DNA of 64,000 nucleotides. It comes from Kiritimatiellia bacterium. GTDB lineage: Bacteria > Verrucomicrobiota > Kiritimatiellia > CAIVKH01. The position numbers and the translations under genes are program-made. Each line of letters begins with the position of its first letter. The stretch's first letter is position 1. The notes under the pieces are model-generated. The model was not told where the DNA came from, ran no database searches, and saw nothing but the letters and a program-made list of their open reading frames with translations. The DNA lies in assembly GCA_025054615.1 (NCBI GenBank), contig JANWZO010000014.1, positions 1-64,000 of the forward strand. The letters run 5' to 3'. Shown one piece after another: positions 6,891 through 28,975 of the stretch.

Positions 6891-7305
6891 CCTTCAGCGG
6901 GGTTCCTTATACCGCCGCGATTGCGCCGCTCCAACCCGCAAACCGAATGAAAAGTCGATGTCTCGGCACCGCGCGGCATTTTCCGATGCGCATGCGGACA
7001 GCCTTCGCCAGCCGCCCCTCGCTTTTTCCATGGAATGGAAAAACGTTTGTACAAATTTCCATGGAATGGAAAACCGCACGTCAAATTTTCCATGGCATGG
7101 AAAAACCATCGTGCTCGTTTTCCATCGCATGGAAATTTCGCTGTTTGCGAAAATGGTGGTTCTGGCACCGACTTTGGAGCTGAGCTGGGGCAAGATGCGG
7201 GATGGGTTTGGTGAACCCGCCGGATTGTGGCTTGCTCGGCGTTCCGTGCCAAAGCTAGATTCCTAGACGGCGGGTGGGCCTCCCACCTCGGCCGGACAGA
7301 GCGAG
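6891..7305. other. Divergent intergenic region rlmD/crcB with palindrome array
   Basis: 415 bases between the divergent starts of rlmD and crcB. The only clear structure is the four-unit palindrome array at 7023-7135. I saw no convincing -35/-10 pair. A fluoride riboswitch before crcB was considered and not supported. Confidence 0.7.
7023..7135. repeat. Array 1: four TTTCCAT-NNN-ATGGAAA palindromes, 31-32 bp period
   Basis: Four near-perfect palindromes with arms of 7-9 bp and a 3-base centre: 7023-7043 (centre GGA), 7056-7072 (GGA), 7086-7104 (GGC), 7119-7135 (CGC). Centre positions 7033, 7064, 7095 and 7127 give spacings of 31, 31 and 32 bp, about three turns of B-DNA. The 12-14 base spacers are not obviously alike. 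The same element recurs at 25097-25257. Similar units elsewhere in the window were not found by eye. Confidence 0.9.
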
Positions 7306-22644: not shown

Positions 22645-25053
22645 TCAGCCCCTTCCCAACGGCGCCGCCGATGCCCGAACGCGCTGCAACGTTCCGCAAA
22701 ACCGCCACGATTTGGAAACGAGCCGAACGGGCGCCCCATCGAAAAATACCCGCGAGAAGCGGTCATATAGAACGAGCGCGATTGATCCGATGCCGAACCC
22801 ATCCTCGATCGTTTCCGTCTGGACGACGAGGTCGCGCCCATGCACTTCAGCCCGAATCACCACGGAACTCCGCTGCCCGGACCGATAGCCATCGGTATCT
22901 CCATCGTCGCAGGTGTAGGTGGCCGACGCCTGAGCCCCGTCCCTGTTTCGAAGGAAGATATGGGCCTCGATCTCCAACGGATTCCATCGGTTGTCGACCG
23001 GCTCGCCGACACTCATCGGAAGGATGCTTCCTTCCCGGACATAGAGCGGTGTTTGTTCCTCAGTCGGTGAAACCGTCAGGCGGCAGGGAGCTTCAATCCA
23101 ACGCGAATCGATCGCCGACCACCACGCTGCAGGTCCGGGCAGGATCACGTCCCGCGTCCGCCGTTCGCCATCGAGAATCGGTGCCTGCAGGATCGCCGGA
23201 CCAATCATGAATTCATCCTCGATGCGGTCCAGCGGGAAATCAGTCGTTGAGTCAAAGTCGTAGAACAGCGGCCGTATAATCGCGTCGCCGTCCTCTTCGT
23301 GCCGGATGAACAGGTTGTAGAGATAGGGTCGGAGCTTGTAGCGGAGCCGGATGTAATGCCGCACGACGCGAAGCGTGAGCCGATCGAACGCCCAGGGCTC
23401 CTGCCGGCGAGTGCCCTTCGCGCTGTGGTTTCGACAAAAGGGAAACAGAAAACACGCCTTTTGCCAGTCGCGCAGGAGTTGCGGTGATGTGTCGCCGGCA
23501 AATCCGCCAATATCCGGGCCATTGAACGGAACTCCAGAAAGAGCGAGGTTCAACGTGCACGGGATCGCGAGCTTCAGATAGTGGTAGTTGGAGCAATTGT
23601 CGCCGGTCCAAATCGCGGCATATTTGCCGATGCCCACGTAGCCGGAACGGCTGATCACGAAGGGCCGCCTGCCAGGGTGCGCCGCGGCGAAACCCTCACG
23701 CGTCGCGATCGCCATACCCAGGGCATATTGATTGTGAAACGCGTCGTGGGGCAGGCGCCCTTTCTGAAACCGCATCGCATCGTTCTGCACGAAGCCGGTC
23801 GACGGATCATTCATGTCGATCCACGCGCCGCGAATGCCCGCAGCGGCAAATTTCCGCACGTTTTCCGCCCACCATTTGCGCCCCTCGGGCAGCGAGAAGT
23901 CGGGGAAGACCGTGTCGCCTGGCCACACCTGGCCCACAAACTCGCCGCCTTGAGGATTCCGGCAAAAGATGTCGTGCTTTTGCCCGTCGTCGTAAATCGA
24001 GTAGCCCGGCTCGCGTTTTACGCCCGGGTCGAGAATCGGGATGACCTTTCTGCCGTTTTCCTCAAGTCTTTTGACGGCGGCCCCAAAATCGGGGAAATGT
24101 TTCGGATCGACCGTAAACACCTTGAACGACTGCATGTAGTCGATGTCGATCCACAAGCCGTCGCAGGGGATTCCATGCTCGCGGAATTTCCCGTCCAGCT
24201 CGAGGAGGTCCGATTCGGATTGATAGCCCCAACGGCACTGATGGTAGCCCAGCGCCCACACGGGGGGCAGCGGCGTACGACCCACGAGGGTTTGGTAAAG
24301 CCGCGTCAATTCGGGAAGGCTCTCGGCTGCGATCACGTAAAGGTCCGAGGCCCCGCTCTCGGCGCCCAGCGCGATTCGCGGCGCCGCGCTGCCGCTGCCG
24401 TCAGGGAACGATGCCCCCGTGTGAATGAACGTCGCTTGAGGATTGTCGAGGAGCAGGCCGATCCAGTGGCGCCCCCGATGCACAATCAGGTAGGGGATGG
24501 AGGCATAATACGGATCCGGTCGGTCCTCGAAGACTTCTTTCCAGTGAAAGTCGGCGAAGGCGTCGGTATTCCAAAATTTAGACTGCCGCCCCGAAAGCTC
24601 GAGCCCCAAGAGCTTTTCACCCATACCATAGAACCGATCGTCATCGCGTCTTTCAAACAGGAACACCGTCGCCGATCCGCTGACGCCGATCGCGGAGCCG
24701 GCGGGAGCCGAGAACACCTCGGCGCCGTCCGGCGCGCGTACAGCGACCGCGCCAGTGGCGTCCATCGAGGCCTCATAAACCGGCGCGCTGCCGCGTTTCG
24801 GCCTGCGCGGATCCAGTCCGCTGAGAAGCGGAACGGACTGCCACGGCCCTCTGAGCCGCAGTCGACAGATTCCATTGCCAAACTGGCGAAATTCGATGTG
24901 CAAGCCGGAGCGGCCGGCCCGGGCCGAACCGCGCCGATCTACCCGGCGAATGAATTCGAAATTCAGAAAATGCGGAAATTTGCGGAAATACACGCGGCGA
25001 CTAAACAAAACATCGCTCGCGTTGGGCAAGCGCGAATCAGCGCCGCGCCGCAT
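22645..25053 (-). CDS. Glycoside hydrolase family 31 alpha-glucosidase-like enzyme
   Basis: 802 residues from ATG 25053; the true start could be a later codon such as GTG at 24993, since the first ~20 residues look poorly conserved. GH31 core is clear: FYGMGEKLLGLELSGR, PVWALGYHQCRWGYQS, LWIDIDYM, the nucleophile Asp413 in WIDMNDPS, and the acid/base Asp485 in IWTGDN. An N-terminal galactose-mutarotase-like domain and C-terminal beta-domains fit the family, which acts on alpha-glucosides, alpha-xylosides or sulfoquinovosides. No signal peptide is evident, so it is likely intracellular. Palindrome array 2 sits 44 bases upstream. Confidence 0.88.
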   Translation of the reverse strand: MRRGADSRLPNASDVLFSRRVYFRKFPHFLNFEFIRRVDRRGSARAGRSGLHIEFRQFGNGICRLRLRGPWQSVPLLSGLDPRRPKRGSAPVYEASMDATGAVAVRAPDGAEVFSAPAGSAIGVSGSATVFLFERRDDDRFYGMGEKLLGLELSGRQSKFWNTDAFADFHWKEVFEDRPDPYYASIPYLIVHRGRHWIGLLLDNPQATFIHTGASFPDGSGSAAPRIALGAESGASDLYVIAAESLPELTRLYQTLVGRTPLPPVWALGYHQCRWGYQSESDLLELDGKFREHGIPCDGLWIDIDYMQSFKVFTVDPKHFPDFGAAVKRLEENGRKVIPILDPGVKREPGYSIYDDGQKHDIFCRNPQGGEFVGQVWPGDTVFPDFSLPEGRKWWAENVRKFAAAGIRGAWIDMNDPSTGFVQNDAMRFQKGRLPHDAFHNQYALGMAIATREGFAAAHPGRRPFVISRSGYVGIGKYAAIWTGDNCSNYHYLKLAIPCTLNLALSGVPFNGPDIGGFAGDTSPQLLRDWQKACFLFPFCRNHSAKGTRRQEPWAFDRLTLRVVRHYIRLRYKLRPYLYNLFIRHEEDGDAIIRPLFYDFDSTTDFPLDRIEDEFMIGPAILQAPILDGERRTRDVILPGPAAWWSAIDSRWIEAPCRLTVSPTEEQTPLYVREGSILPMSVGEPVDNRWNPLEIEAHIFLRNRDGAQASATYTCDDGDTDGYRSGQRSSVVIRAEVHGRDLVVQTETIEDGFGIGSIALVLYDRFSRVFFDGAPVRLVSKSWRFCGTLQRVRASAAPLGRG

Positions 25054-25096: not shown

Positions 25097-25257
25097 TTTC
25101 CATGAAATGGAAAACTTGCAGCGATGATTTTCCATCGCATGGAAAATCTGCAGCAACTTTTTTCCATGGCATGGAAAATCTGCGGCAACATTTTTCCATG
25201 GCATGGAAAATTTGCCGCAACACGTTTCCATCGCATGGAAATTTCCATGCCATGGAA
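25097..25257. repeat. Array 2: six TTTCCAT-NNN-ATGGAAA palindromes, 32 bp period
   Basis: Units: 25097-25113 (centre GAA), 25127-25147 (CGC), 25160-25178 (GGC), 25192-25210 (GGC), 25225-25241 (CGC), 25243-25257 (GCC). Centres at 25105, 25137, 25169, 25201, 25233 and 25250 give spacings of 32, 32, 32, 32 and 17. The spacers are alike too (ACTTGCAGCGATG, TCTGCAGCAACTT, TCTGCGGCAACAT and TTTGCCGCAACACG share TGCNGCAA), so each period is nearly a 32-bp direct repeat. It lies between the ligA stop and the GH31 start, both minus strand. The arms match array 1. Confidence 0.92.
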
Positions 25258-25344
25258 TTTTCGAGTGACATCGCTGAAAAAATTCGGCTCTGGAATCTGG
25301 TGCCGGCTGTGCAGGCGAACGGCCTCCGCCCTGAACAGATCCGA

Positions 25345-28975
<3,631 letters not shown>

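Follow-up and report, generated by a model that had tools for sequence, protein, structure and literature searches.

What is a row of short palindromes, set at a nearly constant distance from each other between a GH31 glycoside hydrolase gene and the gene of an NAD-dependent DNA ligase, doing in a Kiritimatiellia genome? We analyzed this row in its window (the whole stretch of 64,000 nucleotides that was read), in the rest of the host genome, and in related and unrelated genomes. On balance, we favor the reading that the array is a cluster of putative binding sites for a dimeric sequence-specific protein, with such sites occurring genome-wide in Kiritimatiellia.

Palindrome arrays in the window and in the host genome

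The original prediction described five palindromes exactly 32 bp apart and a sixth one 17 bp further on, an arrangement that we confirmed, with the array end moved by one position from 25257 to 25258 (Table 1). It had also placed all dyads on the same side of the helix. This applies to the five units with 32-bp steps but not to the sixth, which follows at 1.6 turns and thus is not on the face of the others. A second array in the same window had been overlooked. It is located between two divergent genes, crcB and one of the TRAM/tRNA-U5-methyltransferase type. When up to three mismatches to TTTCCATNNNATGGAAA were allowed, 15 matches were found in the window, whereas dinucleotide shuffles gave 2.27 ± 1.44 and at most 6, so that the palindromes far exceed the level of shuffled sequence.

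Table 1. Positions of palindrome units, arrays, and adjoining genes in the 64,000-nt window
Feature	Position	Strand	Remark
Unit 1, TTTCCATGAAATGGAAA	25097..25113	.	exact match to TTTCCATNNNATGGAAA
Unit 2, TTTCCATCGCATGGAAA	25129..25145	.	exact match; 32 bp from unit 1
Unit 3, TTTCCATGGCATGGAAA	25161..25177	.	exact match; 32 bp step
Unit 4, TTTCCATGGCATGGAAA	25193..25209	.	exact match; 32 bp step
Unit 5, TTTCCATCGCATGGAAA	25225..25241	.	exact match; 32 bp step
Unit 6, TTTCCATGCCATGGAAT	25242..25258	.	one mismatch; abuts unit 5, 17 bp step
Second array, four exact units (7025, 7056, 7087, 7119)	7025..7135	.	steps 31, 31, 32
GH31 glycoside hydrolase gene	22645..25053	-	Pfam PF01055; 25097 array upstream
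NAD-dependent DNA ligase gene (ligA)	25345..27708	-	Pfam PF01653; 25097 array downstream of stop

The 15-bp spacers of the 25097 array are similar to each other. The shared spacer sequence that had been pointed out, TGCNGCAA, is exact in three of the four, the first spacer being TTGCAGCGA; it is confined to this array, and spacers elsewhere differ. A CRISPR was considered and rejected, since 17-bp palindromes alternate here with spacers that are alike within the array and not unique.

The host genome (2.48 Mb in 51 contigs) contains about thirty such arrays, the 25097 array among them. In this genome, we counted 107 exact TTTCCATNNNATGGAAA sites and 54 tandem pairs, compared to 0 for the reversed-pattern control. 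These exact sites are mostly found in intergenic tandem arrays with 31- or 32-bp steps. Array anatomy was studied in a sample of 457 kb and in twenty further stretches around arrays, with genes called by a simple script of our own, so that single start sites are approximate. In this DNA, about 90% of which is coding, 32 of the 34 clusters lie between genes, and the remaining two were called genic, each at an uncertain gene start. Steps between neighboring sites measure 31 bp in 34 pairs and 32 bp in 18; the others are 17, 48, 62, or 63 bp. The palindromes show perfect dyad symmetry around a free N3-N5 center, where GC-containing triplets are favored, and the spacers are AT-rich (GC 0.41 versus 0.61 in the genome sample) and on average themselves dyad-symmetric, roughly WTTYKCSGAAAWWT. 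One 17-mer variant, TTTACAGACGATGGAAA, is identical at three host loci (L036:1293, L036:17533, and L041:5414).

A specific link to the GH31 gene had been proposed, and the position of the 25097 array directly upstream of this gene, whose start is not certain (25053 for the longest frame, 24765 by the gene caller), would suit a local operator for GH31, or for ligA. However, the host arrays adjoin unrelated genes, among them those for phosphoglucose isomerase (PGI), citrate synthase (gltA), an aconitase family protein, and G6PD, as well as ruvA/ruvB, metG, argG, panB, gcvP, ligA, GH31, and crcB, which have no common functional theme. Multiunit clusters lie in tandem, divergent, and convergent gene contexts in numbers of 17, 6, and 3 versus a background of 154, 58, and 34; the host arrays have no promoter preference or gene-orientation bias. 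A GH31-specific operator was therefore rejected, the arrays being genome-wide and orientation-neutral, and we regard a local operator of any kind here as most improbable. Among the flanking genes scanned, none encodes a transcription factor or another DNA-binding regulator. Two of the array loci have features of their own. The largest array of the host (seven units) adjoins a gene for a 365-amino-acid protein with weak similarity to RdgC (L050:4978-6072), and a six-unit array of 172 bp lies between ruvA and ruvB, usually close neighbors but separated here by roughly 400 bp (L070:7201-7601).

Helical phasing and the grammar of steps

Distances between pairs of sites have a period of 10.42 bp in the host, 10.37 bp in family f26, and 10.42 bp in families f7, f36, f21, and f5, and none of 2,000 random sets attained the phase score observed for adjacent steps. 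A uniform step of 31 to 32 bp is by itself insufficient proof of a 10.4-bp period. The strongest case is f26, because 21- to 22-bp steps are used there besides those of 30 to 31 bp. A spacing of 1.5 turns (16 to 17 bp) is seen at a minority of sites. With the 10.4-bp phase present in several lineages, spacing does not vary freely between genomes, and the view of the array as a dyad-symmetric, helically phased DNA element, intergenic, genome-wide, and common to relatives, is borne out.

Palindromes and steps persist while spacers diverge between arrays. At the one locus compared between species, the difference between the orthologous arrays of genomes G066 and G086 is exactly one complete 31-bp unit. 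The G086 arrays are composite and have a direction, and every type of step has its own spacer consensus. The 22-bp step leads from ATGAT to ATGGT in 27 of 31 cases, the 30-bp step starts from ATGGT in 23 of 24 cases, with ATGAT or ACGAT at its other end, and units with ATGAT or ACGAT are linked by 31-bp steps. Steps of 22, 30, and 31 bp with a step-dependent palindrome center were recorded at loci L155-L174 of G086 and L098 of G066. In another genome, G103, two arrays at a distance of 1.5 kb each have the inverted repeat TGTCGGATATGCCGACA immediately upstream (L092:6940-6975 and L092:8450-8487).

The arrays might also be transcribed RNA elements, such as tandem hairpins, a terminator, or an sRNA-like structure. 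Their strands fold better than shuffles (z of -6 to -8), which is inevitable for a palindrome, but both strands fold alike, no Rfam match was found at the array, and phasing to B-DNA is unnecessary for RNA. Moreover, the directional G086 arrays are oriented with their co-directional neighbor genes in four cases and against them in five, i.e., without relation to transcription. The preference in the original prediction for a DNA site over an RNA hairpin hence stands, and there is very little chance that an RNA element explains the arrays.

Mobile extragenic palindromic repeats of the REP/BIME or MITE-like kind, spread by a transposase, would account for sites that are intergenic, dispersed, and composite. 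G086 contains dozens of scattered related array copies, many with 85 to 94% identity over about 110 to 200 bp, and two arrays of G047 have common flanks. Yet the units are symmetric, and spacers differ where palindromes do not, which is the opposite of what recent copying would leave. The occurrence of Y1 (RAYT-type) transposases does not follow that of the sites: the bearer G046 has none and the non-bearer G018 has 21, some non-bearers have them in abundance, and the single match in G000 is partial and at a contig end. This distribution led us to reject the RAYT transposase as a marker of bearers. Mobility would explain the dispersal in f26 but neither this transposase distribution nor the coding sites described below, which are substitutions and not insertions, and spread by mobility appears quite improbable.

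Distribution in the class and sites inside genes

A search for the core TTTCCA-N5-TGGAAA in 346 genomes of Kiritimatiellia, mostly drafts, detected it in ten families, and the highest number in any one genome was 1,363. Bearers include f1 (121 copies in the host and 1,164 in G079), f7 (244 to 1,363 in genus g11), and f26 (19 to 458), in addition to f36, f21, f30, f16, f17, f8, and parts of f5, whereas f31, f37, f10, f2, f25, f18, and others have 0 to 5 copies. Outside the class, no genome in a sample of 388 from the phylum had more than 8 copies. Similar arrays had been suspected in Verrucomicrobiota at large; they are indeed present in relatives, but these belong to Kiritimatiellia, the rest of the phylum being at background. 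Among 84,980 species genomes, the tandem pair of the host form was found only in records titled Kiritimatiellae or uncultured bacterium. A viral or plasmid origin was rejected, as the tandem pair occurred in 3 of 2.9 million viral contigs and no similar plasmid DNA was found. Our search of the open PubMed Central literature for the palindrome motif found nothing.

The half-site TTTCCA recurs across many families, a constancy built into the search pattern, and base 7 differs by lineage: it is T in the host, A in f7, f36, f21, and part of f26, and C or T in the remaining part of f26. Copy number changes rapidly, with 7 versus 244 to 1,363 copies in two genera of f7 and 0 to 5 versus 620 within genus g45, where G071, G090, G187, and G218 are at the low end and G061, G113, and G119 have 380 to 620. 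Arrays are not universal, sites in f16 and f30 being mostly single and often located in genes. No clear clustering at origin or terminus, as had been considered, was seen; in G145 and G081, sites lie around the whole chromosome and are mildly clumped.

The complete chromosome of G081 (f16) is informative regarding sites inside genes. Its sites are mostly single, and 34 of the 52 sampled are within genes. Across 111,286 codons, we counted 7, 6, and 19 sites in the three reading frames, where codon usage predicts 0.00, 0.02, and 0.03; the total of 32 versus about 0.05 is hundreds-fold above the codon expectation. The peptide FQxLE is found 32 times versus 1.0 expected. The proteins ClpX, PrmC (two sites), PriA, M17 aminopeptidase, and PdxB align to solved homologs without a site-sized insertion, and YicC has a gap of only two residues near the site. 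Therefore, these coding sites of G081 were written by substitution, and an inserted mobile element was rejected for them on the same alignments. The coding-site loci are L117 and L123-L142. A DNA-level force acts on the motif, strong enough to alter protein sequence.

Such a force could be a genome-wide drive that keeps a highly iterated palindrome by methylation-linked biased mismatch repair or, as with DNA uptake sequences, biased uptake instead of selection at each site. The former has been modeled for HIP1 of cyanobacteria. HIP1 shows similar behavior from lineage to lineage and goes along with methyltransferases (PMC4390886). The G081 sites, which override codons in all three frames, even enrich FQxLE, and arose by substitution in the housekeeping genes named above, fit a drive, as does the rapid turnover of copy number within a genus. 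On the other hand, a drive leaves unexplained the phased arrays, the 22/30/31 grammar, and the near-exclusive intergenic placement in G000. Overall, we consider it unlikely.

A putative dimeric binder and comparison with known systems

Returning to a dimeric binding protein, which is the simplest single explanation, each TTTCCA-N5-TGGAAA would take one dimer, with one subunit per half-site, and steps of two or three turns would place successive dimers on the same face of the DNA, where neighbors may touch and bind cooperatively. The putative protein probably bends or wraps intergenic DNA, like multidimer Lrp-type regulators. Many small arrays, as in the host, or many single sites, as in other lineages, would point to a global nucleoid-organizing or broadly regulatory role and not to one operator. 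More doubtfully, we speculate about a class-specific, sequence-coded nucleoid-organizing system, in which a new protein would assemble on palindromes with a two-turn/three-turn grammar and mark intergenic DNA at hundreds of points as well as, in certain lineages, housekeeping coding sequence. The range from 0 to 5 up to 620 copies in one genus counts against a dimeric binder, as it is odd for an essential architectural system. The minority of sites at 1.5 turns, the mostly single sites of f16 and f30, and the lack of a DNA-binding regulator beside any array scanned also count against it.

None of the protein families tested qualified as the binder, as Lrp/AsnC, ParB_N, and RdgC-like proteins occur in bearers and non-bearers alike. 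A conserved Lrp-like protein of 159 residues was found in 66 of 67 bearers and 98 of 126 non-bearers, counts that are uncorrected for shared ancestry and include, among 29 negatives, 9 (G168 among them) inferred from being unlisted. G168, with a genome 88% complete, is the sole bearer in which this protein was not found. Its recognition segment varies greatly from bearer to bearer, unlike the half-site. Lrp as the binder is phyletically possible but was set aside, lacking bearer specificity and a constant recognition helix. The Lrp/AsnC-like proteins of the class (L179-L198) are mostly encoded once per genome, mostly end in (V/I)SP or (V/I)TP, and have an unusually variable HTH region. As bearer markers, we also rejected the RdgC-like protein, matched in 144 of 193 class genomes regardless of sites, and ParB_N, with no bearer-specific ParB paralog.

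If the sites are protein-bound, much of a bacterial class carries a positional code across its genomes, the phase, the grammar, and the turnover of this code are readable from sequence, and the site choice of a nucleoid protein, with gain or loss of hundreds of sites per genus, becomes testable via close relatives. If a drive makes the sites, they are an equivalent of HIP1 that arose independently and changes protein sequence, which is equally testable.

Among known systems, the sites of Noc and ParB (NBS and parS) are likewise dispersed palindromes in tens per genome, and the NBS core reads TTTCC...GGAAA. In contrast to these, the Kiritimatiellia palindrome has a gap of N5 instead of none and forms tandem 31-bp arrays. 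REP/BIME elements with RAYT are similarly extragenic, dispersed, and built of composite palindromic units, but the Kiritimatiellia units are symmetric 17-mers in strict phase that do not co-occur with a Y1 transposase. HIP1 is also present in coding DNA, as is the Kiritimatiellia palindrome in some lineages; overrepresentation in both coding and noncoding DNA, a feature of HIP1, was found in G081 and not in G000. HIP1 differs in being 8 bp long and contiguous, and we know of no helically phased HIP1 arrays; G000 sites are nearly all intergenic. Both are clade-wide, highly iterated palindromes with variable copy number among relatives (PMC4390886).

Lrp proteins bind as cooperative dimers to sites two or three helical turns apart, center to center, and wrap the DNA (PMC2995911, PMC10201364). 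The Kiritimatiellia arrays may work like Lrp-type arrays, but membership in that system is not supported by our comparison; they differ in that a genome has hundreds of strong, nearly identical sites and lacks a regulon. The multisite operators of Lrp/AsnC proteins (Ss-LrpB, BarR, and E. coli Lrp) resemble them in having several short (semi-)palindromic sites per region (PMC2995911, PMC10201364), and Lrp-like spacing is found in the Kiritimatiellia arrays, with steps of 21 to 22 and 30 to 32 bp in a phase of 10.4 bp.
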